A stretch of 64,000 nt of DNA from Halobaculum sp. MBLA0143 (GTDB lineage Archaea > Halobacteriota > Halobacteria > Halobacteriales > Haloferacaceae), in contig NZ_JBGKAC010000002.1 in assembly GCF_041361465.1 (NCBI RefSeq), positions 496,001 through 560,000 on the forward strand, in the 5' to 3' direction. The position numbers and the translations under genes are program-made. Shown piece by piece: positions 193 to 49,878 of the stretch. The number at the start of each line of letters is the position of its first letter. The first letter of the stretch is position 1. The notes below the pieces were generated by a model. It was not told the DNA's origin, did not search any database, and saw only the letters and a program-made list of their open reading frames with translations.

Positions 193-798
193 TCACCCAC
201 CGTCGCGTGCTGTGGCGGTGACGGTGAAGATAACCTGCCTGCTGGGCTCGTGGACGACAGTGACGCGGACGGTCTCGCCGGGCGCGACCGGACACTCCGA
301 GGGGGTGAGTCGGAACGCGAAGCTGTCACCGACGACGAAGTTCGGGCCGGTGTCGGCGTGGAGCGCGCCGGCGGACCACTCCGCGTCGGGGCCGCCCTCG
401 TCGATCGGACTGTCGTCGCCCGCCGCGAAGTTCTCCTCGCCGTAGCCCAGGTTACCGAGCCCACTCCGGGTGGATGGGAGGTTCAGGATCTCGGCGCTGT
501 CGGTGTCACAGCCGGCCACGTCGCTCGTGTCGACCTGGACTCGGACGTTCGCAACCGGGACGGGGTCGCCGCCTCGGTGTGTGACCCGGACGACCCCGTC
601 GGCGAACCCGGACTGGGTCGGGAACTCGACACTCGACTGTGCGACCTGTGGCGCCGGCTGGCGTAACCCCTGGGCCGCGCCGTCGACGAAGACGAACACC
701 GTCCCGGCGAGGACGACGGTGACTGCGACCAACAGGACGACCGCGACGACACTCGAGACGCCGCGAGTCGTGCTCACCGAACCGTCTCTGAGACGCAC
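193..798 (-). CDS. Archaeal type IV pilin-like protein
   Basis: A 201-residue secreted protein with the class III signal layout of archaeal pilins: a short basic N-terminus (residues 1-13, ending TTRG), then one hydrophobic helix (VSSVVAVVLLVAVTVVLAG onward) that both anchors the subunit and forms the filament core. PibD-type peptidase would cut just before the helix. The rest is a beta-rich acidic domain with two cysteines and no other motif. It belongs with the haloarchaeal Pilin_N (DUF1628) family and would act in adhesion or surface filaments outside the membrane. It diverges from the histidine kinase gene that begins at 980; the 180-bp gap must hold both promoters. Which pilus it joins cannot be told. 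Confidence 0.85.
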   Translation of the reverse strand: MRLRDGSVSTTRGVSSVVAVVLLVAVTVVLAGTVFVFVDGAAQGLRQPAPQVAQSSVEFPTQSGFADGVVRVTHRGGDPVPVANVRVQVDTSDVAGCDTDSAEILNLPSTRSGLGNLGYGEENFAAGDDSPIDEGGPDAEWSAGALHADTGPNFVVGDSFAFRLTPSECPVAPGETVRVTVVHEPSRQVIFTVTATARDGG

Positions 799-979
799 GC
801 CTTCATCTACGAAGCGACGACTTTCAATCTACTGGGTCTGCCGGCACGAGTGGCGGCTGCGCCGTCGACGGCGGTGGGTTCGGGTCCCCTGGCTGGTGAC
901 GACTCGTTCGACGCCCGTCTGCCGGCCACGCGAAACACGGACCCAGGATACACGTCGCTGGGGCTCGACAGGGCTGACG

Positions 980-2416: not shown

Positions 2417-2476
2417 TCAGAACCCTCTCGTCGGCCCCAAAACTCAAACGGCTAACACTCTTGTCTTGCAAATAAC

Positions 2477-3292
2477 GTGGTATCGAACGAATTCGCCGGG
2501 GGGCGTCGCGAGCTGACAGCGACGCTCCTCGACACGGACGAGTCGTGTCTCCTGATCGGTCCGTCGGCGACACTGCTGGGGGCCGTCGCCGACCTCGTGA
2601 TCGGGTCACCGGCGGAACTGCCGGCGGTGGACGTGTTGGCGGAAGCCGAGGCACTGAAGACGGCCAGAGAGGAGTTCCAGGTCGCCGCCGGGCTCGCGGA
2701 GGGGATCGCGGCCGACCGGCTCCGGATCCGGGTGTTCGACGAGCGGGCGGACACGACGTTGCTCGCGACGTCGTCGGCCGTGTACGCCGTCGTCGACGGC
2801 AGCAAGGCGGTCGGTGCGCTGGCGTCCGAGGCGGAGCCGCTCGTCGGCGGTGTGCGAGAGGCCTACCGCGAGAAGTTCGCGGACGCCGACAGCTTCGACT
2901 TCCGGCGACCGGCGCTGTCGCACACGATCCAGACGTTGGAAGAACAGCTCGGCGAGCCGGTCAGCGCGGAGTTCGAGCGCGCACTGGAGGGTGCAGAACG
3001 CGTCACCGGGTTGGACGCGGTCGTCACGCTGTTAGTCGTCGTCACGGCCCGCAACGAAGGGCTCCTGTACGACCTCAGCCAGTGGAGCGAAGACGTCGGG
3101 CTGGCGAGCAAGGCGACCGTCTCGCGCCGGAAGTCGCAACTGGAGGACACCGGGGTGGTCCTCACCGAGAAACAACCCATCGACATCGGGCGGCCACGAC
3201 TGCGTCTCGTGCTGGATCCAGACAGCGACTTAGCGGCTGCCGACCCGGAGGAACTGTGGCCACTCACCCGCGAGTATCTGCCCACCGCCTGA
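2477..3292 (+). CDS. tbsP: TbsP-like transcriptional regulator
   Basis: A 271-residue haloarchaeal protein of the DUF5821/TbsP type. The N-terminal part (about 1-190) is an alpha/beta domain that opens with DESCLLIGPSATLLGAVADL. The C-terminal part holds a helix-turn-helix (LLYDLSQWSEDVGLASKATV followed by SRRKSQLEDTG, about residues 195-235). TbsP of Haloferax is described as acting with the sugar-responsive regulator TrmB on central carbon genes such as gapII. The name is given from family resemblance, not from a search. The GTG at 2477 is the first start after the kinase stop, 60 bp downstream. The gene stands alone and is followed by the large repeat array, so any relation to partition is only positional. 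Confidence 0.75.
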   Translation: MVSNEFAGGRRELTATLLDTDESCLLIGPSATLLGAVADLVIGSPAELPAVDVLAEAEALKTAREEFQVAAGLAEGIAADRLRIRVFDERADTTLLATSSAVYAVVDGSKAVGALASEAEPLVGGVREAYREKFADADSFDFRRPALSHTIQTLEEQLGEPVSAEFERALEGAERVTGLDAVVTLLVVVTARNEGLLYDLSQWSEDVGLASKATVSRRKSQLEDTGVVLTEKQPIDIGRPRLRLVLDPDSDLAAADPEELWPLTREYLPTA

Positions 3293-3414
3293 ACCGGAGC
3301 CTCTCTTTTCGGCGCTCCTCACAGCCGAGACAGACAGAGTAGTCGTCGCGGTGACGTGGGGTAGGGTACCCGCTCGTCTGTCGTCGGTAGCTGCGGTGCA
3401 TTTCTGTTCTTCCT

Positions 3415-4377
3415 ACCTGTTACAGACATCTGTACGGTATTTCTGTTACCATTGTCTGTTACAGGTGACTGTCATCGATGTCTGTCACCGTCGTCTGCCG
3501 CAGGCTCGGACACTTCCGACTGTGTGGTTGTCGTGCCAGTCCGTGTGCACCTTGTCTGTACTAGCCGTCTGTGATGGTAATCTGTTACATCTGTCTGTAT
3601 GCACTGTCTAGAACAGTCGCTCTCGACGGTGTGCTGTATCGGCAATCCGTGACAGCTGTCTGTGAGGCGCCCGTGTGCCGGTCGAGGCAGTCTGCGTGAC
3701 GATCGTCTGTGACGTTTGTCTGTAATACTTGTCAGTAACGGACTTCTGTAACGGCTGTTCGTAGCCGTCGACTCTCGAAACGTCGGTGTCGCTGTCGACC
3801 ACTGTTACGTCTGTAACAGTTATCTGTTACGAACTTCTGTAACAGACGGCTATCAATTTGGCCTGTTACAGAAGTCTGCTACAGACGTTCGTGCCGAAGA
3901 TCTAGTACTACGGGTCGTCACAGTTCACAGCGGACAGCTGTCACGCCTGCCTGATCGTCGGTCATCTGTTACTCTCATCTGTTACGTCTGCTACAGTCAC
4001 TTCTCGCTCGTTTGTCTGTTACAGGTACCTGTTACAAATATCTATTACAAGCATCTGTTACAGCAATCTGTTACAGTCATCTGTTACGTCTGTCTGTTGT
4101 CCTTGTCTGCTACCCTCGTCTGGAACGCCTCTCGTCTCGGTCGTGTGTCTGGGTCGAGTGACGCACAGTCCACGACGATCGATCCGGGGGTAGCCACGTT
4201 CGGCCGGACAGCTCGTCTGTTACAGACAGTCGTTACAGACAGCTATCACAGACAAGTCTGTGTACACCAGCAACGACCGACTACGGCGTGTGTCTGTAAC
4301 AGGTATCTGTAACAGAAGTCTGTAACAGACGTTCGGGACAAAAGTGCAGGACAGATGTCTGACACAGACTTATCTGG
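3415..4377 (+). repeat. 13-bp-period degenerate iteron array (candidate centromere or operator)
   Basis: Nearly 1 kb without a gene is filled by short repeats on a 13-bp period. The unit is close to RTCTGTTACAGNN, with the core CTGT(T/A)ACAG, a 9-bp pseudo-palindrome. A clean run lies at 4014-4135, where nine successive units (gtctgttacaggt, acctgttacaaat, atctattacaagc and so on) keep exact 13-bp register. Other runs in register are at 3415-3505, 3708-3760 and 3790-3890, and from 4291 to the parA TATA box the core is inverted. By eye there are about 15 CTGTTAC and 5 CTGTAACAG copies, plus many decayed ones. The array ends in the parA promoter, suggesting a partition site that also represses parA. 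It is not a CRISPR: there are no long repeats or unique spacers. Confidence 0.85.
4368..4377 (+). promoter_or_regulatory. TATA-like box for parA
   Basis: The sequence ACTTATCTGG is centred about 26 bp before GTG 4398, the spacing expected for a leaderless haloarchaeal transcript. The last repeat unit (GTCTGACACAGAC) directly abuts it, so a protein bound there could block TBP/TFB. Confidence 0.55.
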
Positions 4378-36313: not shown

Positions 36314-36395
36314 GAAGGGGGGGTGACACCCAGTCGTGGCCCACCCACAGAGACGCCCCGCCAACGTTCAAGTGCCGGAGCGTGCCACCGTCGCC

Positions 36396-37427
36396 GTGAC
36401 AGTCCGTCGTTCGCTCGTCGCCGCGCTGGGTGCGCTCCGGGCCACGCCGTCGTTGTTCGCCGTCGGGTTCCTGGTCGCCGCCGGGCAGTTCGCGCTCGTC
36501 GTCGCACAGCAGTACGTCCCGTCCGGGGCCGTGTCGCCGTACTCTACGGCGACCTCGGTCGTCGTGTTCCTGTCCCTGCCGGTGATGTTCTCCGGCGGCG
36601 TGGCGTTGTCCGCGGCGGCGCTGGACGGTGACGGCAACCTCGGGACGTTCCTGCGCGGCGTCCGCGAGCACGTCCTCCGGGTGTTCGTTGGCTGCCTCGG
36701 GCTCGGGGTCCTGGCGGCCCTCCTGGGCGTCGGCGGTGGCTTCGGGTTCGTCGTCGTCGGAGCGCTGGTCGCACTGACGGTCGGGGGCGTCGCCGGCGGG
36801 TCGGCGGCCTTCGTCACCGTCGTGGTGGCGTGGGTGGTGTGGTACTTCCTGTTGGCGCTCCCGTTGGTCGCACTCCACTTCTTCGCACACGCCGTCGTTC
36901 TGGACGGGTCGAGCCTCGGTGACGCCTTCCGGCGCAGCGTCGCGGTCGTTCGCGGAAATCTCGGCACTGCGACGGGGTACGCCTTCGTCCTGTTGTGTCT
37001 GGGGGTCGTCGGGCTGTTCACCGTCGTCGCCGGGTCGTTGGACGGCACCGTCCCGCCGGCGGCCGATGTGGCCGAACGGGCGGAGTCGGTCGCGGTGTTC
37101 ACGCCGACACAGGCGTACGTGATCCAGGCCGTCGGCTACCTCTTCGTGGTCCTCGCCAGCACCGCTCTCTGGCCGTTCTCCGTCGCGGTGTACCGGGATA
37201 TGCGCGACCGTGTCGTCGAGAGCGATGACGACGCGAGTGGCGCCAACGGCACCGACAACACCAGCGATATCAGCGACGCCGACAACACCGGCGACATCGG
37301 CGACGCCGACAACACCGGCGATATCAGCGACGCCGACAACACCGGCGACATCGGCGACACCGACAGCAACAACGACACCGACAGCAACAACGACAGCGGT
37401 GACGGGGGCGACACTCCCGCCGTGTGA
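36396..37427 (+). CDS. Haloarchaeal membrane protein (DUF7847-like), copy 1
   Basis: A 343-residue membrane protein with about six helices (GALRATPSLFAVGFLVAAGQ, SVVVFLSLPVMFSGGVALSA, VFVGCLGLGVLAALLGVGGG, VVVAWVVWYFLLALPLVALH and more) and conserved blocks AALDGDGNLGTFLRGVREHV and HAVVLDGSSLGDAFRRSVAV. The C-terminal 60 residues are an Asn/Asp/Ser/Thr repeat tail (ISDADNTGDIGDADNTGD), probably disordered. The next gene is a paralogue. GTG 36396 is chosen because the paralogue aligns from the same point and both have an identical 23-bp upstream block about 27 bp before it. The function is unknown; the family looks like a transporter or a lipid-related membrane domain. Confidence 0.75.
   Translation: MTVRRSLVAALGALRATPSLFAVGFLVAAGQFALVVAQQYVPSGAVSPYSTATSVVVFLSLPVMFSGGVALSAAALDGDGNLGTFLRGVREHVLRVFVGCLGLGVLAALLGVGGGFGFVVVGALVALTVGGVAGGSAAFVTVVVAWVVWYFLLALPLVALHFFAHAVVLDGSSLGDAFRRSVAVVRGNLGTATGYAFVLLCLGVVGLFTVVAGSLDGTVPPAADVAERAESVAVFTPTQAYVIQAVGYLFVVLASTALWPFSVAVYRDMRDRVVESDDDASGANGTDNTSDISDADNTGDIGDADNTGDISDADNTGDIGDTDSNNDTDSNNDSGDGGDTPAV
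37240..37400 (+). repeat. Short tandem repeats coding the Asp/Asn tail
   Basis: Units of GACGCCGACAACACCGGCGA and variants encode DADNTGDI. They are confined to copy 1 of the paired genes and look like a recent expansion. Confidence 0.7.
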
Positions 37428-37512
37428 CTACCACCCGCACGCTCACTGTCTCGCGCCACGGGTAGTGAGACGCCCCGCCAACGTTCAAGTACCAGAACGA
37501 GCCACGGCCGCT

Positions 37513-38412
37513 GTGACACTCAGTCGTTCGCTCGTGGCCGCAGTCGGCGCCGTCAGGAAGTCCCCCGCGTTGCTCGCCGTCGCGGCCGTCTTCACGGTGG
37601 TCCAGATCGGAGTCGTCGCCGCACAGGGGCTCGTCCCCGCGAGTGCCCTCCCGTTGTACTCCACGGCGACTTCGCTCGTCAGCTTCGTCACGACGCCGTT
37701 GTTGCTCGCCGGCATCGTTCCGCTGTCGGCGGCGGCGCTGGACGGTGACGGCGGCTTCGGAACGTTCCTGGCGGGCGTCCGCGAGCACGTCCTCCGGGTG
37801 TTCGTCGGGTTCCTCGGCCTCGGCGCCGTCGGGGCCGTCGTCGGTGTCGTCGGAGTTGTCGTGTTCGTGATCCTCTCGTTCGTCGTCGGCGTCGGGGTGC
37901 TCGCGGTCGCGGACGGCCTGACGGCGGGTCTCGCCCTCTTGGCCTTCGCGCTCCTGTTCGTCACACTGCTGACCGTCCCGCTCGTGGCCGTCCACTTCTT
38001 CGCGCACGCCATCACGCTGGACGGCCTGGGAGTCGGCGACGCCTTCGGCCGCAGCGTCGCGGTGGTTCGCGGGAGTCTACTCACGACACTCGGCTACACC
38101 GTGGTCCTGATGGCGTTCGGCACCGTCGGGTTTCTCGTCGGAATCGTCGGGTCGTTGGACGGCACGCCCGGCACGTTCACGTCGACACCGGGGGGAGCCG
38201 ACGCCGCCGCCGCCCAGCTAGACTGGTACCCGTTGCTCTCCACGACGGAGGCGGTGGCGCTCCAGGCCGTCGGCGCCGTCTTCCTCGCCGTCGTCACGGC
38301 CGTGTTCTGGCCGTTCTCCGTCGCGGTGTACCGCGAGCTGCGCGACCGGGTCGTCGAGGACGGTGGCGACGCGAGTGACACGGGCGACACGCGGGACGCT
38401 CGGCCGCTGTAG
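37513..38412 (+). CDS. Haloarchaeal membrane protein (DUF7847-like), copy 2
   Basis: A 299-residue paralogue of the preceding gene product, without the Asn/Asp tail. Shared blocks: AALDGDGGFGTFLAGVREHV, LRVFVGFLGLG, HAITLDGLGVGDAFGRSVAV and WPFSVAVYRELRDRVVE. About six membrane helices. GTG 37513 aligns with GTG 36396 of copy 1; the frame upstream is open but reads as the shifted repeat tail of copy 1. The duplicated block AGACGCCCCGCCAACGTTCA (37468-37487; also 36351-36370) lies in the promoter position of both genes, so each probably has its own promoter. Confidence 0.75.
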   Translation: MTLSRSLVAAVGAVRKSPALLAVAAVFTVVQIGVVAAQGLVPASALPLYSTATSLVSFVTTPLLLAGIVPLSAAALDGDGGFGTFLAGVREHVLRVFVGFLGLGAVGAVVGVVGVVVFVILSFVVGVGVLAVADGLTAGLALLAFALLFVTLLTVPLVAVHFFAHAITLDGLGVGDAFGRSVAVVRGSLLTTLGYTVVLMAFGTVGFLVGIVGSLDGTPGTFTSTPGGADAAAAQLDWYPLLSTTEAVALQAVGAVFLAVVTAVFWPFSVAVYRELRDRVVEDGGDASDTGDTRDARPL

Positions 38413-38470
38413 GCCTCGGGAAGTAGCGACTCGTGACTGGCGGCTGGAAAGTCTCCTGTCGTTGTTGACG

Positions 38471-38746
38471 ATGGTCGCCGAGCTGTGGACCGGTTCCCAG
38501 CGGTTGTTCGAGACGCTGTATCCCGGTGTGCTGTACGTCGGACCGTTGAACGATGTCCCGCTCTTCGACTTCGCGGGTGTCACCGCGGCGGCGGACGGAA
38601 TCGTCCCACTGGCGTTCGCCGTTGCCGGACTCGTCGGCCTCGCGGCCGCGATCCGACACTGCCGGGTGTACGGTGGTTACCCTCGGGTAGCTGACCGTCA
38701 GGTGGTACTCTCAGGGAAGCCCGCCGTCAGGCCCGTCTCCGAGTAG
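38471..38746 (+). CDS. Small membrane protein
   Basis: A 91-residue protein starting at ATG 38471, with one or two hydrophobic segments (YPGVLYVGPLNDVPLFDFAG; GIVPLAFAVAGLVGLAAAIR) and a basic C-terminus. It converges with the S9 peptidase gene, with 7 bp between the stops. No family recognised. Composition and high GC3 support it as real. Confidence 0.55.
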   Translation: MVAELWTGSQRLFETLYPGVLYVGPLNDVPLFDFAGVTAAADGIVPLAFAVAGLVGLAAAIRHCRVYGGYPRVADRQVVLSGKPAVRPVSE

Positions 38747-38753
38747 TCGACCG

Positions 38754-40553
38754 TCAGGAGTCCTCGCCGACGTGTCGGTCGAAGAACTCGGCCACGCGGC
38801 CGAACGCGGCGACGCGGTCGTCGTTCGCGGTGAGTCCGTGGTCGGCACCCTCCAGGAACTCGTAGTTGACATCTACGTCGTGTTCCGCGGCCGTCTCGAC
38901 GGCCCGCTTCGACTGCGTCGGTGGCACTGTCGAGTCCCCCGTCCCGTGGATGAACAGGAGCGGACACGCGGCGTTCCCGAGATCGTCGGTCGGGCTAAGA
39001 CGACGGAGGAGATCCCGGTCGTCGTCCAACGAGCCGTACTCTGCCTCGCGGTTTGCCCGCCGCCACGGCTCGGTCTCTTGGAGGAACGTCTCGAAGTCGG
39101 TGATGGGCGCGAGCGCGGCCGTTGCGCCGACGGCGGCACCAGTTGTTGCTGCTGCGAGCGCCAGGAAGCCGCCGTATGAGTGGCCCAACAACACCACCCG
39201 ATCGTCGTCGACGGACGGACGGTCGGCGACCCAGTCGACGGCCCGCCGGGCGTCGGCGACGGCGTCGAACCGTCCCTCGCCGTGGTCAAGTCGGCGGAAC
39301 CGTCGACCGTAGCCGGACGACCCGCGGTAGTTCGGCTCGAAGTAGGCGTACCCTTCGCCGACGAAGTATCGCCGGAGCGGATTGAACGTCCGGTGTGCCT
39401 GCTGTGTCGGGCCGGGGTGAAAGTAAACGATCGCCGGGCGTGGGCCGTCGGTCGACGGTGTCGTGTGGAAGCCGTGTACGTCGACACCGTCGGAGTCGTA
39501 CCGGACGGACGACGGCACCGGTGGATCGTCAGTCATCGACGGGTTCGTCAGGTACGTCCACTGTGTCGTCTCGCCGGTCGCCAACTCGACGGTGTACACC
39601 TGTGGCGGAGCGACTCCTCGGTAGTAGACGACAGCCGCACGTTCACCGTCCGGTCCGAGAGCGATCGGCCCGAAGTACCCGGAGTCGAGCGCCGGCTCCG
39701 GGAGTGACTCGACAGTCGTCGTGTCTTTCAACATCCCGGTCTGGAGGCGCGCTGTCCCGTCATGTTCTCGTTCGTAGACGACCCGACCACTGTCTGGGTC
39801 GACAGACAGCGACTTGAGGTTCGCGTCGGTGGTGACGACCGGTGTGGTCTGGGCGTTCTGGAGGTCGATTCGGTAGATTCCCCTACGGTCGGAGTCGTGT
39901 TCTGTTACAGCGTACACTGCGTCCTCCCCTGGCGCGGGCGCGAGTGATCTGAGCCGTCGAGAGTCGGTCTCGTCCGTACCGACGCGGGTGAGCGTCCCGC
40001 TCCCCGTCTCGACCACCGCGAGTGTCTCGTCCCCGTTGGCTCGTGTCTCGAGCACGAGGAGCCGACCGGTGTCCGGGCCCCACCCGACCGGCGTGATCTG
40101 CGAGTCTCCACCGTGTTCGTACAGTCGGGTACGGTCGTCGCCAGCGACTCGGACCACGTCGAACGTCGCCCGGTCTCGACCGTTGGCGGCACAGACGACG
40201 CCACTGCCGTCCGAAAGCCACAGTCCCCACCGGTGGACGACGCCCGGCTCGTCGGTGAGCCGCCGAGACGCCCCCGACGACGGGTCGACGGCGAACAACT
40301 GACGACCGCTGTCGGCTCCGGCTGCCGAGAACGACAGCCAATTCGTCGCCGTGTGCAACGAGCCAGGGGCGACACCACCGCGAAAGGTGAGCTGGCGGGG
40401 TGGCGCTCCCGGCTCGTCGATGCACCACAACTCGTAGTCGCCGGTTACGTCGGTGAGGTATGTCAGTGTGTCGGCACCGTCACCGATGTGGACCGACCTG
40501 AGGTTCCGTACACTGAAAAGTCGTCTCAGGTTATATTTTACGTTGTTTCTCAT
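38754..40553 (-). CDS. S9 family (prolyl oligopeptidase-type) serine peptidase
   Basis: A 599-residue enzyme with the S9C/acylaminoacyl-peptidase layout. Residues 1-340 are beta-propeller blades (GDYELWCIDEPGAPPRQLTF, SGVVCAANGRDRATFDVVRV). Residues 350-599 are an alpha/beta hydrolase with oxyanion region YFHPGPTQQAHRTFNP, the block NYRGSSGYGRRFR, nucleophile elbow GHSYGGFLAL (Ser near residue 455), and acid and histidine positions in LLFIHGTGDSTVPPTQSK and LEGADHGLTAN. It would cleave short peptides in the cytoplasm. ATG 40553 lies about 24 bp from a TATA-like CAAATAATTC. It diverges from a peptide gene, so it may trim or degrade that peptide. Confidence 0.88.
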   Translation of the reverse strand: MRNNVKYNLRRLFSVRNLRSVHIGDGADTLTYLTDVTGDYELWCIDEPGAPPRQLTFRGGVAPGSLHTATNWLSFSAAGADSGRQLFAVDPSSGASRRLTDEPGVVHRWGLWLSDGSGVVCAANGRDRATFDVVRVAGDDRTRLYEHGGDSQITPVGWGPDTGRLLVLETRANGDETLAVVETGSGTLTRVGTDETDSRRLRSLAPAPGEDAVYAVTEHDSDRRGIYRIDLQNAQTTPVVTTDANLKSLSVDPDSGRVVYEREHDGTARLQTGMLKDTTTVESLPEPALDSGYFGPIALGPDGERAAVVYYRGVAPPQVYTVELATGETTQWTYLTNPSMTDDPPVPSSVRYDSDGVDVHGFHTTPSTDGPRPAIVYFHPGPTQQAHRTFNPLRRYFVGEGYAYFEPNYRGSSGYGRRFRRLDHGEGRFDAVADARRAVDWVADRPSVDDDRVVLLGHSYGGFLALAAATTGAAVGATAALAPITDFETFLQETEPWRRANREAEYGSLDDDRDLLRRLSPTDDLGNAACPLLFIHGTGDSTVPPTQSKRAVETAAEHDVDVNYEFLEGADHGLTANDDRVAAFGRVAEFFDRHVGEDS

Positions 40554-40568
40554 TCGGGTTGCCAGATA

Positions 40569-40581
40569 GTGAGAATTATTT
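40569..40581. promoter_or_regulatory. Shared AT-rich promoter of divergent units
   Basis: GAGAATTATTTGG can serve as a TATA box on the minus strand for the S9 gene (start 40553) and, less well placed, on the plus strand for the peptide gene. The two units would then be regulated together. Confidence 0.4.
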
Positions 40582-40621
40582 GGCCAAAAACGTTTTCATT
40601 GCAGAGTTACTCATGTGCTGG

Positions 40622-40637
40622 CAGGAGGAAACTCCTG
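40622..40637 (+). promoter_or_regulatory. Hairpin over a Shine-Dalgarno-like sequence before the peptide gene
   Basis: CAGGAG-GAAA-CTCCTG is a perfect 6-bp stem with a GNRA-type tetraloop, 8 bp before ATG 40646. It holds the only GGAGG in the leader, so folding could control translation. If translation starts at ATG 40613 instead, the hairpin lies inside the coding sequence. Confidence 0.5.
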
Positions 40638-40645
40638 AATCTCGA

Positions 40646-40753
40646 ATGAGTGACACCGACGTGGGGCTGAAGATGCCCAATCTGACAGAATCGGTCGACG
40701 AGAACAAGCAGACGGAACAGGACGGTTCCTGGGCTCTCATCTCCTTCGACTGA
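40646..40753 (+). CDS. Small peptide, candidate precursor
   Basis: A 35-residue peptide from ATG 40646; ATG 40613 would give 46 residues beginning MCWQEET. High GC at third positions from 40646 supports that start. The N-terminal 25 residues are polar and acidic (MSDTDVGLKMPNLTESVDEN), like a leader, and the end is DGSWALISFD with one aromatic Trp and a terminal Asp, like a short core. The gene is followed by a 431-residue unknown protein and an MFS exporter, and diverges from a peptidase: the layout of a ribosomal peptide product locus. No modification enzyme that I can recognise is adjacent. The precursor role is inference. Confidence 0.55.
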   Translation: MSDTDVGLKMPNLTESVDENKQTEQDGSWALISFD

Positions 40754-40808
40754 GTAGCTACAGTAGTCGACAGGGAGCTGACAGCCCTCAATCCAAGTTT
40801 TAAACAAA

Positions 40809-42104
40809 ATGAAAGAACAAGTGCAGAAGATTAGCGACCGAGCCGAGACGTATCTGTCCGACACGCTCGATCTCTTCGAGCCACTGGCGTGGACAGAGAG
40901 ACAACAGTCGGAGACACTACGGAAGGCTTTCATCGAACTGGGACTCTTCGAGTACGTGGGTCGTCTCGCGGGCGAGTCGGTACCAGAAGTGCGAGCACAT
41001 CTGGTAGAGCGAACGAACGACCCTCGGTACGCGGAACTGTTCGATCGGTACCCGACGTTGTTCAGGAGCTACGGGCTGCCGGCCGTCTCCCTCCGCCAGA
41101 CGGGTGACTTGGAGCAACGGACCGAGAACGCCGTGGACCGTGTTCTCCGTGGTGACACAGTCTGGGGAGTCGAACGACAACCCAACTCTTTGTTGGATCT
41201 CCTGCTCGAAGCGGAGCTGTGGGGGTACCACGACCACGGGTACGACATCGAAGAGATCGTGTCTCACTCAGCGGTCGCGTACCCGCCGGACCCCGTAGAG
41301 GCGACGTTCAGCGACTACTACGCACTAACGCACTCTGTGTTCGCGCCGACTAACTTCGGCTGGGGTGGGGACCGACTCCTCGCCCCGCCACTGCCGTACG
41401 AGCTGGAGACGACGATCACGGCTGGCGTGATCAGAGGGATCGCCGCCGGTCACTCCGACATCGTCGTCGAACTGTTGTGGATCGGGGCCATCCAGGAGCA
41501 ACTTCACCCAACCGTGTTCGAGCACGCTGTTCGGTGGCTCGTCGACGAGCGAAGCGTCCCTGGCCGAGTACTCCAACCGGACATGGACATGACCGAGTCC
41601 GACCGGGAGGGCTTCGCCGTCCCGATGGACGACACGGAGGCGTCGACGTGGACCGGTGATCAGTTGACCTGGCTCCGTCACTACCACGTCAATATCGTCA
41701 CAGGGTGCATGTCACGGTACCTTCTGGACCGCGTCGACCTCGGCGAGTACGATACCACGACGGTCGACACAGACCCGGAGTCGTTTGCCGCGCTCGCGTC
41801 GTACGGTAGCCTCCTGAACGCGCTCCACGACTACGACCTCGGCGCAGCAGCCGAGCAGGCGGTGGCAATCGACGAACAGTGGTTCCAGAGGTTCGACAGT
41901 CTCACAGAGCGTGTTTTGAAGTTCTTCCGCGCACAGGAACGCGGCGATCGGTTCGGTTACTGGCCGGACGAACAACGGCTGTTCGAGCTCGAACACGGAG
42001 ACGCAGCGGCGTTCCAGTCGGAACTCGTCGAGCCAATCGCCTCGAAGTGCCAGCAGGCGATAACTCACCTCGAGGACTCCCTCGAACGGGCGGACCATGC
42101 GTGA
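40809..42104 (+). CDS. Unknown 431-aa protein of the peptide locus
   Basis: A soluble, helical protein of 431 residues. Notable parts: VRAHLVERTNDPRYAELFDR, LLDLLLEAELWGYHDHGYDI, SDYYALTHSVFAPTNFGWGG, and ARGININE-poor acidic helices to the end. Conserved-looking His/Asp/Tyr clusters (GYHDHGYD, YYALTHSVF) could be catalytic or ligand-binding. The layout resembles the DUF6895 type of protein found near peptide genes in other organisms, but this is from memory and unverified. ATG 40809 lies only about 10 bp after a TATA-like TTTTAAAC, so a leaderless start at GTG 40821 is possible if that box is used. The gene overlaps the exporter gene by 8 bp. Confidence 0.7.
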   Translation: MKEQVQKISDRAETYLSDTLDLFEPLAWTERQQSETLRKAFIELGLFEYVGRLAGESVPEVRAHLVERTNDPRYAELFDRYPTLFRSYGLPAVSLRQTGDLEQRTENAVDRVLRGDTVWGVERQPNSLLDLLLEAELWGYHDHGYDIEEIVSHSAVAYPPDPVEATFSDYYALTHSVFAPTNFGWGGDRLLAPPLPYELETTITAGVIRGIAAGHSDIVVELLWIGAIQEQLHPTVFEHAVRWLVDERSVPGRVLQPDMDMTESDREGFAVPMDDTEASTWTGDQLTWLRHYHVNIVTGCMSRYLLDRVDLGEYDTTTVDTDPESFAALASYGSLLNALHDYDLGAAAEQAVAIDEQWFQRFDSLTERVLKFFRAQERGDRFGYWPDEQRLFELEHGDAAAFQSELVEPIASKCQQAITHLEDSLERADHA

Positions 42105-43347
42105 GGTGTTCGCCAACGCGAAGTTCCGCAGGCTGTTTGCCGGTCGGCTTGTCACCAACCTCGGCGACAGTCTCTATTTCGTCGCGGCGACGTGGTTCGT
42201 CCACGAACTGTCGAACGACCCGTTTCTCACCGGCCTGGCGGGGTTCCTCACGCTGTTGCCCGGTGCCTTCCAGTTCGTCGCCGGTCCGCTCGTCGACGAC
42301 TGGGACGTGCGGCGCGTGCTCGTAGCCACGCAGTTGCTCCAGGCAGTCGTCGTCTCCGTGATTCCACTCAGCGCTCACTTCGGCGTTCTCCGGGTGGAGG
42401 TGATCCTGATCGTCATGCCGGTGTTGGCGAGTATGAACGAGTTCGCCAACCCCGCGATGTCGGCCGCGCTGCCGCGACTACTCGACGAAGACCGGCTCGT
42501 CGCCGCCAACTCGGCGTTCTCGTTGGCGTCTGACGGGACGGACTTCGTCGGCAACGGGTTGTCCGGGCTGGCGATCGCCGCCTTCGGCGCCGTGTCGTTG
42601 TTCGTGTTTGACGCCGTCTCCTTTCTCGTCACCACGGCGTTGTTCGCCACAGTCGCCGTCCCCGAGGCCGACGGAGAGACTGTGACAGAGACTGAAGAGA
42701 CACCGTACCTAGAGCGACTCCGGGTCGGGTTCGACTACATCCGGGAGTCGTTCCTGTTGTCACTGCTGGCCGGCGCGGCCGTGGCGAACCTCGCAGTCGG
42801 AGTCGCGCTGGCGACAATGCCGTCGTTCGCGGAGACGATGCAGGTGCCACAGGTACCCGTGGTCGACCTCGGCGGCGCCGGTGCGTACGGCGTCCTGATT
42901 GCGGCCTTCACGCTCGGCAACGTCGCTGGCGCCGTGACAGCGGGCCTGATCGACGACATCCCGTTCGGAGCCGTCGCCGTCGGCACCGGTCTGCTGTCGG
43001 CTGTGCTGTGGGCTGCTGGCGTACTCGCCGGGTCGCTGACCCTCACCGCACCGTTGTTGGCGCTGGCGTTCGTCCCTGTTGGCGCGTTCAACATTCAGGT
43101 CGTCGCGTTGGTCCAGTCGGCACCGCCAGAGGAGATTGTCGGTCGCGTCACCTCGGTGTTGGGTTCGTTGTCGGTTCTGGCGCTTCCTGCCGGGTCGTTA
43201 CTCGGTGGCACTGTCGGCCGGTTCACCACCCCCTCGACGGCGATGCTGTGCGTTCCGGTCGGACTCGCGTCGTTCGCCGTCTACGTCGCCGTCTCCTCCG
43301 AACTCCGGTCACTCCCCTGCGTTGGCGAGGTGGAGCTGGACGGGTGA
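42097..43347 (+). CDS. MFS exporter
   Basis: A 416-residue major facilitator protein with twelve predicted helices of the MefA/MFS_3 exporter type. The N-terminus NAKFRRLFAGRLVTNLGDSL carries the typical F-RLF-G-R-ISNLGD entry motif, and a motif A-like GPLVDDWDVRRVLVATQ follows helix 2. A central loop (about 190-212, VPEADGETVTETEETPYLER) separates the two halves. It most likely exports a small molecule or peptide by proton antiport. The ATG at 42097 overlaps the end of the 431-aa gene, so the two are co-translated. In this locus the natural cargo would be the small peptide or its product. Confidence 0.85.
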   Translation: MREVFANAKFRRLFAGRLVTNLGDSLYFVAATWFVHELSNDPFLTGLAGFLTLLPGAFQFVAGPLVDDWDVRRVLVATQLLQAVVVSVIPLSAHFGVLRVEVILIVMPVLASMNEFANPAMSAALPRLLDEDRLVAANSAFSLASDGTDFVGNGLSGLAIAAFGAVSLFVFDAVSFLVTTALFATVAVPEADGETVTETEETPYLERLRVGFDYIRESFLLSLLAGAAVANLAVGVALATMPSFAETMQVPQVPVVDLGGAGAYGVLIAAFTLGNVAGAVTAGLIDDIPFGAVAVGTGLLSAVLWAAGVLAGSLTLTAPLLALAFVPVGAFNIQVVALVQSAPPEEIVGRVTSVLGSLSVLALPAGSLLGGTVGRFTTPSTAMLCVPVGLASFAVYVAVSSELRSLPCVGEVELDG

Positions 43348-43431: not shown

Positions 43432-44265
43432 TCAGTCGTCGGCGGGCGTGCCGGACCCCGCCTCGCGCTGTGAGGTCGTGATCGTCCGCTCGTTGTCGGC
43501 GACCCACCGGAGGAGCAGGAACGCGAAGACGTACTTCGCCAGCACGTCCAGCGCGGAGTAGGCCCACGAGGTGAGGCCGACGGACTGGATCACGGCCAGC
43601 CCCTCGATCCCGAGCGCCCAGACGATCGGGTAGCCCAGCCAGAGGACGACCGTGAGGATCCGGAGCGTGTCGAAGATCTCGCCGGTGCCCGCTGCGGCGG
43701 CGGAGTCGGCCCACTCGGTCAGCAGGGCGTACAGGACCACCACGAAGAACGCACAGCTCACGGCGTAGAACAGCCACCGGACGGCGTACGACGACGTGAC
43801 GAGCGCGGCCGCGAGGCCGGTGACACACATCCCGATGTCGGCCGCGATCACGGTGAACAGACTCCCACGGTCGACGTCGGCCAGGAGACCGAGCGCGAGC
43901 AGGATCATCGGCGTCGACAGCGCCCAGGTGAGGTACCGACCCCACTGGCTGAGCACCTCCTCGCCCGCCAGCGCGTGACCGGCCGGCATCTCGATCAGTC
44001 CGACCGTCAGCCCGGAGGCGAGCCCGAGATAGCTGGAGATCGACACCAACGGGATCATCAGCGTCGCTCCCCAGATCAGCTTCGTCCGGCCGTCCGTGAT
44101 GTTGCGACCCATGTACACGAACAAGAGGATCGACAGCCCCGCTAAAGCGATGTTCACCCACAACGAGGAACTCAGTAACACGTCGTCTCTGATCTGTGAG
44201 AACACGTCCGACTGTGTCGCCTGTTGGAGTAGCACTGCTGCGGATACTGGTTCGATTGTCGTCAT
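43432..44265 (-). CDS. hop: Halorhodopsin, light-driven chloride pump
   Basis: A 277-residue seven-helix retinal protein. Helix C reads RYLTWALSTPMILLALGLLA, with the Thr-Ser-Thr-type chloride motif (TWALSTP) in place of the Asp of proton pumps. The retinal-binding lysine is in helix G (ALDVLAKYVFAF), and GLAAALVTSSYAVRWLFYAV and LTVVLWLGYPIVWALGIEGL match halorhodopsin helices D-F. It pumps chloride inward across the cell membrane in light. ATG 44265 is supported by a TATA box (GTTTAAGTATCC) about 27 bp upstream. No retinal synthesis or bat-type regulator gene is near. It lies alone and ends 84 bp after the MFS gene's convergent stop. Confidence 0.93.
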   Translation of the reverse strand: MTTIEPVSAAVLLQQATQSDVFSQIRDDVLLSSSLWVNIALAGLSILLFVYMGRNITDGRTKLIWGATLMIPLVSISSYLGLASGLTVGLIEMPAGHALAGEEVLSQWGRYLTWALSTPMILLALGLLADVDRGSLFTVIAADIGMCVTGLAAALVTSSYAVRWLFYAVSCAFFVVVLYALLTEWADSAAAAGTGEIFDTLRILTVVLWLGYPIVWALGIEGLAVIQSVGLTSWAYSALDVLAKYVFAFLLLRWVADNERTITTSQREAGSGTPADD

Positions 44266-44645: not shown

Positions 44646-46292
44646 TCAGACGTGACGTTGCAGGAACTGCTCAACTTCGTCAATAGAGCGTCCGCGATGG
44701 TACATCTCTTCAACGATCCGTCGCCCGTGATCACGCTTGTCGTAGCAGTTGAGCCGCTCAGGCCCATCTGGTGTTCTGTGATCCGCCGCGCGTCGCTCAA
44801 CGCGCTCTTCTACATCACAGTAGTCGTCAATTTCCAACGCAGCTGCCGGGAGGTCCACCACGTCCGCAACCACGTCGCTGTCGAAGTAGTTCTCAATCTC
44901 ACGCCTTTTCAGAATGTGACACGGCACGTCGGCATTTGCGGCTCGGTTACGCAGCTCCACGGACTCTTGCTTGGGATCCTCGGCCCCCTCCTTTCGATCA
45001 CTGTCAAGGAGAATTGCAAAGTTTTGGTTGATTTTCTTTAACTTCGCCGGATCACAGTGCTGCATATTGCCCGTTCCACCCAGGGGAAGAATCGTGACCC
45101 CACGATTGTGCCAGTCGTCGATCACCTCCTCTGCAATTCGTTTGAGAATTTCCACGTCGGACTGCCCTTCGACGTAAATGACGAAATCGCTCTGTAGAAT
45201 ATCACTATTACGAGCACCAATCTCGCGGACTGCCTCAAACCCTTCGTCGGCCACCCGTTCGAACTCTGTTGCACCGTCTTCGCGCCGCGTGACATAAATG
45301 TCCGCGTTGGCGCGGTTGTCGATGAACACCTGTGAGTGGGTCGTGAGGACCACTTGACCGCCCCCGCCAGCAATCTCTCTGAGGGCATCGAGCATCTTCC
45401 GCTCGGCTGACGGGTGGAGGAAGTTCCCTGGCTCCTCGAACAAGAGGATGTACCCTTCACTCACCTCGAAGTCGACGTACGCCTGCATCATCGACAACTG
45501 TAGAAGACTCCCGACACCAGACCCGCGCTCTCGAACGTCGACGCTCTCAGAGAGGTGTTCGTCGTGGAGTTCGATACTCGGTGTAATTGCTTTGTCGACG
45601 CGGATGTTGCCAGGAGACATCTCCACCTGCTCGATACTCTCCAGATGTGTCTCAAGATAGTTTGTCAGATGACTCCCGACTTTTTCAGTCGTCTCGGTTA
45701 GAGACTCTCGAAGCTCGGCCTTCTTGTTGGCGACCTCATTGTCGAATCCACCAGACTCTAGAATCGGGGAGAGCAGCTTGTCCATGTGGGTGCCGCCCTT
45801 GAGTTTCGTCTCCTCGCTCACGTCTCGCTCCGCGAAGATGGGGACTGGCTCTGGGAAGAAGTCCCAGACGCGATCACGAGATTTAGCCTTCGTGAGGCGG
45901 GTGTCATCCTCATTGATGGCACCCTTCGAGAACGTCTCGCCGTTCAGGTAGGTCTCTGAGCCTGGAGTTCTTCCGCTCCGACGGCTGAACTCCCGAAGAA
46001 CGGTTACTGTGTCGTTGTCTTCCGGAACGTACTCCTCCCGGAGCAGACCACAGAGTTCCTCCGGAAGTCGAACCTCGGCCTCGAAGCAAATCTCCTCGGC
46101 CTCTTGCATGTGAAAATGCTCGTCGTCGGGTTTGCCACAGTCGAGAAACAGTTCCAGTGCTTCAAGAAACGACGACTTCCCGGCGTCGTTCTTCCCGATG
46201 AACGTCGTCATGTCTCCGAGTTCCATGTCACCGGAGTCCTTGATAGGCTTGTAGTTCTTGACGCGGAAGGTCTCGATGTCGATGACGGACAT
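44646..46292 (-). CDS. OLD-family ATP-dependent nuclease (AAA + TOPRIM)
   Basis: A 548-residue protein with an ABC/SMC-type ATPase domain (residues 1-345) and a TOPRIM domain (about 360-480). Walker A is GKNDAGKSS (33-41), a signature-like LSMMQAY region precedes Walker B YILLFEEPGNFLHP, and the H-loop is in VVLTTHSQVFID. The TOPRIM core shows the catalytic glutamate in VIYVEGQSDVEIL and the acidic pair in ILLDSDR. This is the layout of OLD nucleases, including GajA of Gabija; no UvrD-like GajB gene is adjacent. It would act against phage or foreign DNA. ATG 46292 has a TATA-like ACAAAAGTAATACC about 27 bp upstream. Confidence 0.87.
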   Translation of the reverse strand: MSVIDIETFRVKNYKPIKDSGDMELGDMTTFIGKNDAGKSSFLEALELFLDCGKPDDEHFHMQEAEEICFEAEVRLPEELCGLLREEYVPEDNDTVTVLREFSRRSGRTPGSETYLNGETFSKGAINEDDTRLTKAKSRDRVWDFFPEPVPIFAERDVSEETKLKGGTHMDKLLSPILESGGFDNEVANKKAELRESLTETTEKVGSHLTNYLETHLESIEQVEMSPGNIRVDKAITPSIELHDEHLSESVDVRERGSGVGSLLQLSMMQAYVDFEVSEGYILLFEEPGNFLHPSAERKMLDALREIAGGGGQVVLTTHSQVFIDNRANADIYVTRREDGATEFERVADEGFEAVREIGARNSDILQSDFVIYVEGQSDVEILKRIAEEVIDDWHNRGVTILPLGGTGNMQHCDPAKLKKINQNFAILLDSDRKEGAEDPKQESVELRNRAANADVPCHILKRREIENYFDSDVVADVVDLPAAALEIDDYCDVEERVERRAADHRTPDGPERLNCYDKRDHGRRIVEEMYHRGRSIDEVEQFLQRHV

Positions 46293-46680
46293 GCTAGCTT
46301 GGTCCACCGCTTCTGGTATTACTTTTGTCCTGAGAGATGGTAGCTGTGGTCTGCAATTTTCTCGATTGCAGTCTGATTAGCCGACGAAATAGAGGGGAAA
46401 AATTTCCAGGCACTCGGTCGGTTTGAGGCATCGAAAGCGGCTATGTGGTTGTTCCCTGTGCTGATCTCGACTAAGCATATTACTTGCGCTAACAGTCCAA
46501 TCGCGCCCGGCAGCACTCACCTCCGTGACGCCGGCGATGGGATGCGCACATCTACGAGATGGTGGTCACGGACCTCTCGCGGCGCCCAGGGCTCACCGCA
46601 ACCAACGAGGTGATTAATACGCAGAGAGCGGCGACCCTCCACCAACGTTCACCCTCCGAGACTGTGCGAAACCCTCTTAC

Positions 46681-47238: not shown

Positions 47239-49878
47239 TCAGAACTGCTCCAGGCTCATCGCCATCACGTTCTCGTACCGTTCGTCTCCGGTCGCGTCCG
47301 CCAGGAACTCCGCGAGAGCTACCAGATCGTCCGATCGCCACTCTCGGAGGAACTCCACGGTGTTCTGGTCCGTCACGTAGCGGTGGTGGAGGTAGTGGAC
47401 CTTGTCCACGTCGAGGAGATTGTCCGCGCCGAGATCGTCGCCGTCGGCGTGTAGCTTCCGTTCGACGTGGTCGACGCGCTCGTCGGCCGGAACGGGCACC
47501 TTCTGTCCGTCGACGTCTCTCACGAGCCGTTCGTCCTCGAAGTCGGCCAGACTGAGGTTCTTCGCCAGGAGCTGTTTGTTCAGGGCGTCGTACGGCTCCG
47601 GGCCACGGTCGACGAACGCCGCGAACGCCTCGCTCGTCGTGTCGATACTGCTCGGGAGGTCGACAGCCCCCGACAGCACCTGCTCGATGACGCCGTCGAC
47701 AGTCGCCAACGCGTCGTCGATCCCAGCCCGCTCGCCGTCGTCGTACACCTCGGGGTAGTGGCGGGAGTAGTAGTACAGACACTTTCCGCGGAGGATCACC
47801 CCCAGATCTGCCTTCGAGAGGTCGTCGTGGCGCGCCTGTTCTTCGTCTGCCATCTCCTGGAGCTCGAAGAACAGGTCGCGCTGTAGCTCCGAGAGGGTCG
47901 TCCGTTCGTCGACGCGTTCCTTGTTGGCGTACACGAGAATATCGTACTCCGCGTTGTCGAGCTCGGAGATGTGAGGGTTGTTCGGCATCTCCGACTGGAC
48001 GGGATACGCGCCGGTGATCGTGAACCCACTGTCGACGAGTGCCGCCAGGATCACCGACCACGCCTCGTTCTCGTTGTGGTGGTAGGTGAACACCATCTCC
48101 CCGTCGTCCTTCAGTACCCGGTGACACTCCGAGAATACGTTCGACAACGACTCCACGAAGAACGACTCGTCTTTGTTCGCGCTGTTGTTGGCGACGATCT
48201 CCCGCGCCTTCGGCACCAACTCCGGTCGGAACTCCTCGTAGTCGTCGGCCAACGCCTCCCGCAGCCAGACGTAGAAGTAGTCCGACAGCTCCGAGTACTG
48301 GACGTTGTCGTAGTACGGCGGGTCCGTGATCACGTAGTCGACGGACTCGTCCGGCTGTTCGAGTCGCTCGGCGGTCTGGCAGTGGAGTCCCGCCACCCGG
48401 TCTTCCGAGACGGACTCGTCGGAGACGTGAAACTGCTCCACGTCGCCGGTCTCGTAGTTCTTCACCTTCTCGAAGGGCTCCTGGCAGAACTGTTTGCCGT
48501 CGTGGAGTTTGTCGAAGAAGTTCCTGATCGCAACAGAGTTGCTCTCGTGGTTCAGTGGATTCGGTTCAACCGGCTGAACCCGAGGGACGAATGCGTGCCT
48601 GTTGAACGTATTCATACCCTTCAGATCACGGTAGTGCCACTTCGTCAGCTTCGAGTTGTACTCCAGACAGTTTGACACCCCCGTCACCAGAAACTCCGAC
48701 ACGTTCTGTGCGTCCGCGTCCTCGAACGTGCGGTCGGCCACCGCGATCGCCTTCTGCAACAACGTCCCGAACGTGAGGAGGTGCCGTTCGGTGAACAGCT
48801 CCGAGAACCGATCGTAGTTGTAGTTCAACAACGCCTGTGTCTTGTCACCCGACGGAATCTCCTGCTCGGGAATCGGCAACTCCTCGCGCACCGCCGTGAG
48901 TCGCTCACGTGCCTCCGCGACCCGCTCGGCGTCGCGGTCGTCGAACTCCTTCATTTGCTTGGTGCCATGCGGGTCGACGTACTGGAGCGCGAACCGCTCG
49001 AACGTCGGCTTCTCGTCGTGGCGTTGCAGCGTCTCTTTCACGTCGTGTTTGTGCCCGTTCGAACAGGTGTACTTCCCGTAGCCGTACGTCCCGTCGTTCG
49101 GATCGAACTGGTGGCCGCAGTTGGGACACACCTCGTTGCCGTCTTCCTCGACGGTCACCGTCTCGCCGTCGACCGTCACCGTCGTCCCGGCGTCCAGCCC
49201 CTTCCCGCGATCTTCGAGTTCGACTATCCGGTCGTCACAGTCCTGATTCGGACAGTAGAGGTAGCCGGACATCGTCTTCTTCGTCTTGGCGAGTTGGTAC
49301 CGAGGGAACAGTTGGACGTCCTCGCCACACTCCAGACAGGGGATTCGCTGTGACTGGAAGTAGTACAGCACCTCACACTCCTGGCCAGTCTCGGGGTCGA
49401 CGGTCGTGTAGAGTTCGTCCAGTTCCTCGCGGGTCTCCGCGAGGATGCGGTCGAACTCCCGTTCGAGCACGTCCAGGTCCACCTCGTCGGTGGACTTCTT
49501 CTCGACCCACCACGCGACCGGGTTGAGTTCGTAGCCGATCACGTCCGCGCCGAGTCGGTTCAGCTCGACGAGCGTCGTCCCGCCGCCGGCGAACGGGTCC
49601 AACACCGTCGCGTCCGTCTCCATCCGGTCCGCGTCGGGCGTGATGTACAGCCCGTCGTGGCTCCCGCTCGACCGCTCGGTGAGGATGTCCGTCCTGTCGA
49701 CCGTATCGTCGGTGAGTGCCGCGAGCCCGAGCATCCGGAACGTCGACCCCGGGCGACGCGCCCACCACTTGTGCAGTGAGTAGACGGGTCGATACACGTC
49801 GCGTCGGTACGTCTCCTTCTCTGCCAGTTCGTCCATCAGCCGCAAGGGGAGTTTGTCCCAGGAGTCTGTCGTGTTCAC
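47239..49878 (-). CDS. DUF1156-type DNA methyltransferase (PglX-like role)
   Basis: An 879-residue adenine-type DNA methylase. The N-terminus (WDKLPLRLMDELAEKETYRR, YSLHKWWARRPGSTFRMLGL) is the DUF1156 signature. SAM motif I is LDPFAGGGTTLVELNRLGAD (about residues 92-111). Two zinc ribbons follow (CLECGED with CPNQDCD; CPNCGHQF with CSNGHKH). The catalytic motif is VITDPPYYDNVQYSELSDYF (about residues 520-540). In related systems this enzyme marks self DNA while partner proteins block phage. ATG 49878 follows the PglZ-like stop by 6 bp. Third gene of the minus-strand operon. Confidence 0.88.
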   Translation of the reverse strand: MNTTDSWDKLPLRLMDELAEKETYRRDVYRPVYSLHKWWARRPGSTFRMLGLAALTDDTVDRTDILTERSSGSHDGLYITPDADRMETDATVLDPFAGGGTTLVELNRLGADVIGYELNPVAWWVEKKSTDEVDLDVLEREFDRILAETREELDELYTTVDPETGQECEVLYYFQSQRIPCLECGEDVQLFPRYQLAKTKKTMSGYLYCPNQDCDDRIVELEDRGKGLDAGTTVTVDGETVTVEEDGNEVCPNCGHQFDPNDGTYGYGKYTCSNGHKHDVKETLQRHDEKPTFERFALQYVDPHGTKQMKEFDDRDAERVAEARERLTAVREELPIPEQEIPSGDKTQALLNYNYDRFSELFTERHLLTFGTLLQKAIAVADRTFEDADAQNVSEFLVTGVSNCLEYNSKLTKWHYRDLKGMNTFNRHAFVPRVQPVEPNPLNHESNSVAIRNFFDKLHDGKQFCQEPFEKVKNYETGDVEQFHVSDESVSEDRVAGLHCQTAERLEQPDESVDYVITDPPYYDNVQYSELSDYFYVWLREALADDYEEFRPELVPKAREIVANNSANKDESFFVESLSNVFSECHRVLKDDGEMVFTYHHNENEAWSVILAALVDSGFTITGAYPVQSEMPNNPHISELDNAEYDILVYANKERVDERTTLSELQRDLFFELQEMADEEQARHDDLSKADLGVILRGKCLYYYSRHYPEVYDDGERAGIDDALATVDGVIEQVLSGAVDLPSSIDTTSEAFAAFVDRGPEPYDALNKQLLAKNLSLADFEDERLVRDVDGQKVPVPADERVDHVERKLHADGDDLGADNLLDVDKVHYLHHRYVTDQNTVEFLREWRSDDLVALAEFLADATGDERYENVMAMSLEQF

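Follow-up and report, generated by a model that had tools for sequence, protein, structure and literature searches.

Do archaea produce peptides that contain mirror-image (D) amino acids? The question is raised by a small locus in a 64,000-nucleotide stretch of Halobaculum sp. MBLA0143 (NCBI RefSeq assembly GCF_041361465.1, contig NZ_JBGKAC010000002.1, positions 496,001 to 560,000; the whole stretch is hereafter called the window), in which a 35-codon open reading frame (ORF), a gene for a DUF6895 protein and a gene for a transporter of the major facilitator superfamily (MFS) follow one another and an S9 peptidase gene diverges from them. To our knowledge, the formation of D-amino acids has hardly been documented for archaeal peptides, and the DUF6895 family has barely been studied. 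Our analysis indicates that the locus very probably specifies a ribosomally synthesised and post-translationally modified peptide (RiPP) with a short core near SWALISFD, and that the gene set probably makes, chemically alters, trims and exports this tiny peptide. With DUF6895 as the only candidate modifying enzyme, the four genes would constitute a very small and easily tested pathway, making it testable whether archaea produce D-residue peptides.

Organisation of the locus

The gene anatomy can be read directly in the window, which sits on contig 2 of a two-contig genome that holds two more DUF6895 genes. Related loci are designated below by L numbers.

40646..40753, + strand: precursor peptide gene; its top seven matches among 1574 background small ORFs are all DUF6895-adjacent, and tandem copies occur in L033 and L031
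40809..42104, + strand: DUF6895 (PF21836) protein, candidate peptide-modifying enzyme; Pfam E 2.1e-27, invariant residues
42097..43347, + strand: MFS transporter, putative exporter; MFS_3/MFS_1 by Pfam
38754..40553, - strand: S9 (prolyl-oligopeptidase family) peptidase, putative leader peptidase; Peptidase_S9 E 2.5e-34

The S9 gene (599 aa, with a GHSYGG nucleophile motif read directly in the window) starts at 40553 and the peptide gene at 40646, the two pointing apart with 92 bp between them, and the first 8 nt of the MFS gene (416 aa) overlap the end of the DUF6895 gene (431 aa). All of these genes had been listed in a preliminary description of the locus, which interpreted them as a possible ribosomal-peptide locus with precursor, processing protein, peptidase and exporter. 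That interpretation is supported, except that the 431-aa protein, then regarded as unknown, belongs to DUF6895.

The 35-codon ORF as a precursor gene

The small ORF encodes MSDTDVGLKMPNLTESVDENKQTEQDGSWALISFD (35 codons plus stop), whose end, DGSWALISFD, was checked for its position in the window. We propose a leader comprising M1-G27 (40646-40726), with the motif MPNLTESV, and a core SWALISFD (40727-40750), the boundary between them being provisional. The peptide contains no Cys, either in the core or in the precursor as a whole. An alternative in-frame ATG at 40613 would extend the product to 46 aa, but we prefer the 35-aa start, since the peptide then begins like one from L033 (MNDNYDVG- vs MSDT-DVG-). 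Between the upstream ATG and the supported start lies a perfect 6-bp hairpin with a GAAA loop, which may serve translational control of the peptide:

40622..40637, + strand: hairpin CAGGAG-GAAA-CTCCTG; fold of 40613-40660, -11.3 kcal/mol

As a background set, 1574 small ORFs (20-90 aa, ATG or GTG starts) of 13 other DUF6895 loci were each given a score for similarity to the window peptide. Ranks 1-7 were all taken by ORFs directly upstream of DUF6895, four in L033 and three in L031. The best match, an L033 peptide with a score of 62, lay above all 5000 shuffles; for the two L031 peptides tested, 11 and 36 of 5000 shuffles did as well. In L033, four tandem small ORFs directly precede the DUF6895 gene, three of them 35 aa long (e.g., MNDNYDVGMTDLTASVEDAKQAEHDGSKAIAWITW); L031 carries three 28-aa ORFs ending in SVALISL (two) or TWFWINL. 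The leader-like part of these peptides is conserved and the C-terminal part variable. The literal motif S-W-A-x-I-S-F-D, by which relatives were originally expected to be recognisable, is not conserved; what the window peptide shares with those of L033 and most of those of L031 is a leader motif, M-x-x-L-T-[EA]-x-V, together with a Gly before the core.

The tandem copies differ mainly at third codon positions: changes at positions 1, 2 and 3 number 1,3,11 (a/b), 2,3,10 (a/c) and 1,0,5 (b/c) in L033 and 2,2,7 (a/b) in L031, the L031 pair b/c (7,9,15) being less clear. For the L020/L025 peptide pair the constraint is weak (nonsynonymous rate, dN, 0.14; synonymous rate, dS, 0.22). That the window ORF is very short and has a longer in-frame start would suit a chance open frame, but its best matches lie only next to DUF6895 genes, tandem copies exist and these copies changed mainly at third positions. 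On these grounds we rule out a chance ORF, whose probability is negligible, and regard the 35-codon ORF as a real precursor gene with near certainty. The preliminary description named, as one outcome that would refute it, the absence of any conserved small ORF alongside homologues of the 431-aa gene; we ran this comparison, and homologous small ORFs do adjoin the nearest homologues, leaving the case standing.

More widely, a candidate precursor ORF accompanies DUF6895 in 15/15 haloarchaeal and 8/8 bacterial plasmid loci inspected, counts that were made by eye after viewing the ORFs and with varying criteria; sequence similarity links only some of these candidates. The weakest are those of L022 (130 aa), L048 (125 aa) and L029 (divergent, adjoining the S9 gene), and the candidate is separated from DUF6895 by other genes in L047, L048, L049, L050 and the LanM-type loci. 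L035, L036 and L037 come from the same organisms as L028, L031 and L032 and did not enter the counts a second time. Two streptomycete plasmid peptides (L043, 6672-6869; L044, 6476-6832) share near-identical stretches, GYVLAWDKYVLVV and GYVLAWERYVLVV, and directly precede DUF6895 genes that carry an extra C-terminal part.

The DUF6895 protein as a candidate tailoring enzyme

The 431-aa protein, at first described as unknown, does have relatives: it is a member of DUF6895 by Pfam (PF21836, E 2.1e-27), scoring 96.7 bits against a cut-off of 23.8. We found one published member of the family, titled a lasso-peptide epimerase (Shi et al., ACS Catal. 2026; ref 371 in PMC13352647). The closest relative of the window protein is that of L033 (38% identical), with which it forms a sister pair in the tree (support 100/99). 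Across archaea and bacteria, E43, H175, D217, E221 and H293 are invariant in 22/22 sequences, as are Met1 and two glycines, and Y292 is kept in 21/22. The protein alignments omit L034 (frameshifted) and L025 (DUF6895 gene cut by the contig end), and the 22-sequence alignment also omits one of the two DUF6895 copies of L049, namely the first; H7, where the match was confined to the C-terminal part of the protein, was dropped before the counts. Two invariant histidines and three invariant acids are compatible with two-base epimerisation, in which they may act catalytically.

The gene neighbourhoods of the family point in the same direction. Some DUF6895 genes have no other RiPP enzyme beside them, one is joined by a DUF4135 (LanM-type) dehydratase only (L033), and others by both DUF4135 and LANC_like genes. 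DUF6895 therefore behaves as a RiPP tailoring enzyme; for the 431-aa protein, its family and its association with several kinds of RiPP genes favour the role of processing factor that had been suggested for it early on. Among the 14 DUF6895 loci clustered by BLAST (a set that excludes L025, which is included in the 15 loci examined for precursors), a DUF4135 cluster is present in 6/14 (3/6 checked by Pfam) and a LANC_like cluster in 5/14 (1/5 checked). Pfam found no known RiPP-modifying enzyme among ten neighbours of L020, L027, L028, L031 and L033; one scanned L028 neighbour belongs to the NAD-dependent epimerase/dehydratase family, which acts on sugars. In the window, radical SAM, YcaO, LanM and lasso enzymes were absent from the neighbours scanned by Pfam (not every window gene was scanned), and no modifying enzyme besides DUF6895 was recognised in this scanned neighbourhood.

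Two types of relatives deserve description in their own right. L033 (7620-8900, - strand, and neighbours) combines four tandem precursors, DUF6895, an MFS gene and a DUF4135 dehydratase without a LanC-type gene; its cores contain Ser/Thr and lack Cys, and dehydroamino acids plus epimerisation are therefore a possible outcome. In L032, L034, L030, L024 and L021/L064, the precursor candidates are short, contain Cys, have QFExKH- or ELDEKH-like leaders and lie beside split LanM/LanC-type genes and DUF6895; these loci likely form a haloarchaeal lanthipeptide subgroup.

A different role for the protein would follow if the peptide were exported unmodified, as a signal or halocin-like toxin, with DUF6895 as its immunity protein, chaperone or receptor. 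The hydrophobic short C-terminus and the exporter gene fit this possibility, and the preliminary description had suggested a microhalocin-like or signalling peptide with the 431-aa protein as its processing or immunity factor. We consider it improbable: the His and acidic residues are invariant across archaea and bacteria, as in enzymes, the family occurs with lanthipeptide enzymes and is reported by title as a lasso epimerase (PMC13352647), and no receptor or sensor gene was recognised among the neighbours scanned.

The model of the homologue from L035 is almost all-helical (predicted local distance difference test, pLDDT, 76.4; predicted template modelling score, pTM, 0.80) and aligns with alpha/alpha-toroid proteins, with a best Z of 14.5 (GH105; 267 residues, root-mean-square deviation 3.8), about 14 for terpene cyclases and 10.3 for eukaryotic LanCL2. 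An alpha/alpha toroid is the likely fold of this homologue; the fold stops short of proven because Z values near this level are reachable by unrelated helical models and Foldseek with the L035 model gave no match at E <= 0.001. A search of the PDB for sequence relatives of the window protein gave none that is credible, the two matches (E 0.3 and 0.35) being to designed proteins.

This model bears on a second alternative, that the locus is a RiPP locus in which DUF6895 performs other chemistry, as a LanC-like toroid that cyclises the peptide or joins side chains or ends. Besides the toroid alignments, the company of LanM/LanC-type genes in five haloarchaeal loci and the lack of a further modifying enzyme in the scanned window neighbourhood speak for it. 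On the other side stand the epimerase title of the one published member (PMC13352647), the window core without Cys, the Foldseek result and the five loci where DUF6895 already adjoins a gene of the LANC_like cluster, which makes a second cyclase less needed. We judge such chemistry rather unlikely and lean slightly towards epimerisation as the reaction of DUF6895, on the strength of the paper title and the genomic context.

The peptidase and the transporter

The nearest relative, L033, has the same gene order as the window (S9, peptides, DUF6895, MFS), and the window MFS protein is 47% identical to its counterpart at the same place in L033 and 38% identical to that of L030. An S9 peptidase stands beside DUF6895 in 4/14 loci (window, L029, L031 and L033) and the MFS type of the window in 3/14 (window, L030 and L033), whereas ABC (ATP-binding cassette) transporter genes are found at most other loci, with ABC ATPases in 9/14. 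This uneven distribution would fit the S9 and MFS genes being neighbours by chance, the system then consisting of the peptide and DUF6895 genes only, as would the fact that the window S9 protein is about equally close to its L033 counterpart and to a paralogue in its own genome (37% identical each). It is for the latter reason that we do not claim the S9 gene as a cluster-specific orthologue. The shared gene order, the MFS identity and the supported DUF6895 sister pair make chance neighbourhood unlikely. We retain both genes in the pathway, the MFS protein as the likely exporter and the S9 protein, with a slight preference, as the leader peptidase. The S9 protein has no evident signal peptide by eye, and its identification as a lasso isopeptidase (NF033523) was rejected at 27.9 bits against a cut-off of 400.

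A remnant of another transporter adjoins the S9 gene:

38465..38677, + strand: ABC-2-type permease C-terminal remnant; 57% identity over 72 aa to the L024 permease

Its 71 codons match residues 481-551 of the 554-aa L024 permease (E 3e-17), and five more matches at E < 1e-5 occur in other DUF6895 loci. The remnant suggests that an ABC exporter was once present at the locus, and we infer that the MFS protein now takes its place.

A further kind of peptidase accompanies some relatives. In L029, the gene between S9 and DUF6895 has Beta-lactamase (S12, PF00144) and Pab87 octamerisation (Pab87_oct) domains by Pfam; in S. fungicidicus, a Beta-lactamase-family (PF00144) gene follows DUF6895 (Pfam); in L050 (K. 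fiedleri) a neighbour is annotated as a serine hydrolase, and in L049 (S. chartreusis) inspection by eye showed a similar frame. We report the S12-type genes near DUF6895 as an association; since Pab87 acts on D-amino-acid peptides (PMC2651629), it offers a lead in favour of epimerisation.

A proposed mechanism

On the favoured reading, DUF6895 would hold the precursor through its leader, presumably by the MPNLTESV region, and alter the short core at the precursor's C-terminal end, most likely through L-to-D inversion at one alpha-carbon or several. His175 and His293, supported by Glu43, Asp217 and Glu221, could provide the two-base acid/base chemistry. The S9 peptidase would then remove the leader, probably after the Gly preceding SWALISFD, and the MFS protein would export the short hydrophobic peptide; the order of these steps is part of the proposal.

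Several observations weigh against this reading, in addition to the limited specificity of the S9 gene. The link to epimerisation derives from a paper title and from context. LanC cyclases and terpene cyclases share the alpha/alpha-toroid fold, which hence does not single out epimerisation; for the window protein itself the model is poor (pLDDT 62), and Foldseek was uninformative on it. The Pab87-type neighbour occurs in 1/14 haloarchaeal loci and is absent from the window locus. Finally, the L027, L028 and L020 peptides are insignificant as whole sequences against the window peptide (372 to 4221 of 5000 shuffles were as good) and are tied in only by position and an LTE motif that was picked post hoc.

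In its widest form, which we put forward tentatively and hold to be less likely than not, the proposal is that DUF6895 defines a RiPP class of its own, represented in haloarchaea and in three or more bacterial phyla, whose single enzyme makes ringless short D-residue peptides, with the window locus as a minimal archaeal example. If true, archaea make D-amino-acid peptides, which according to the discoverers of Pab87, an archaeal peptidase specific for D-peptides, had never been observed (PMC2651629). The pairing of precursor and DUF6895 also constitutes a mining rule that works across domains.

Distribution of DUF6895 and surroundings of the locus

DUF6895 is rare in haloarchaea. It was found in 6/170 genomes of the family, 8/392 of the order and 9/391 of the class, and in 3/125 and 3/28 genomes of two other families; these samples overlap, and the figures for the family and the class each include the same weak match, which was later dropped. 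The dropped match, L026/L008 (G048), has E 8.5e-4 over 77 residues and was taken as a weak chance match. A scan of named genomes gave three loci, in HArc-gm2, Halorussus amylolyticus and Halopiger djelfimassiliensis. Among plasmid records, relatives come from Streptomyces, Kitasatospora, Pseudalkalibacillus and Cupriavidus; a query with the window protein gave no match there and one with the L035 protein four, and Pfam assigned DUF6895 to 7/7 bacterial proteins scanned. No relatives were found in viral contigs.

Around the locus, a bacteriorhodopsin-like gene (43432-44265) is convergent with the MFS gene. Two possible defence genes lie nearby, an AAA_15/OLD-like gene with TOPRIM (44646-46307; best PADLOC name AriA/Old) and a DUF1156-like DNA methylase (47239-49878; best PADLOC name HmaB). 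On the other side are two neighbouring related DUF7847 membrane-protein genes (36336-37427 and 37480-38412), the first with Asp/Asn/Thr-rich repeats in a tail at its end.

Comparison with known systems

In its workings the locus resembles a RiPP cluster, but the features tested place it with neither the lasso nor the lanthipeptide clusters. A lasso peptide cluster was rejected, as no leader peptidase or Asn-synthetase-like cyclase is present among the window genes scanned by Pfam; the same genome has a single PF13471 match, in a 923-aa frame of the other contig (C1:673519). In lasso peptides an Asp or Glu at core position 7-9 is followed by a tail. In the core proposed here, with its provisional boundary, Asp is position 8 and also the last residue, which would leave no tail. 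A lanthipeptide cluster was rejected likewise, there being no DUF4135 or LANC_like gene among the scanned neighbours and no Cys in the precursor.

The archaeal RiPPs characterised in PMC12144867 are lanthipeptides, and no word starting with 'epimer' or 'DUF' occurs in its main text. These haloarchaeal class II clusters (PMC12144867) resemble the present system as haloarchaeal RiPPs, and some DUF6895 loci carry DUF4135/LANC_like genes; the window locus differs in that no dehydratase or cyclase was found among its scanned neighbours and its precursor lacks Cys. None of the titles listed by our literature searches concerned a DUF6895-only archaeal RiPP, DUF6895 was named in one paper of the collection searched, and nothing relevant came up on haloarchaea with D-amino acid, epimerase and peptide.

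For the peptidase, the closest precedent is FlaP, an S9 prolyl oligopeptidase that cuts the flavipeptin leader (PMC10885120). In both cases an S9 peptidase would cleave the leader of an adjoining RiPP precursor. Flavipeptin, however, is a class III lanthipeptide cut after Pro(-12), whereas the window leader has its only Pro at residue 11, with the proposed core beginning 17 residues later. Pab87, an S12 peptidase of the Pab87/CubicO kind that acts on D-amino-acid peptides (PMC2651629), has its likeness in the L029 neighbour with the Beta-lactamase and Pab87_oct domains, while the window locus has no such gene.

For the modifying step, MslH, the epimerase of lasso peptide MS-271, has two His/Asp dyads (PMC10406935). 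It differs in having a calcineurin-like fold with Ca(II), as against the alpha/alpha toroid model of the DUF6895 homologue; the likeness we propose is one of analogous chemistry, with two His/acid pairs flanking the alpha-carbon, and no homology is claimed. The DUF6895 lasso-peptide epimerase (PMC13352647) differs from the window system in its setting, since the window locus has no lasso protease or cyclase among its Pfam-scanned neighbours. It carries the same Pfam family name as the 431-aa protein and acts in RiPP biosynthesis; the mechanism proposed here, if true, would give this family, known by name from a single enzyme of lasso-peptide biosynthesis, a free-standing role as well.

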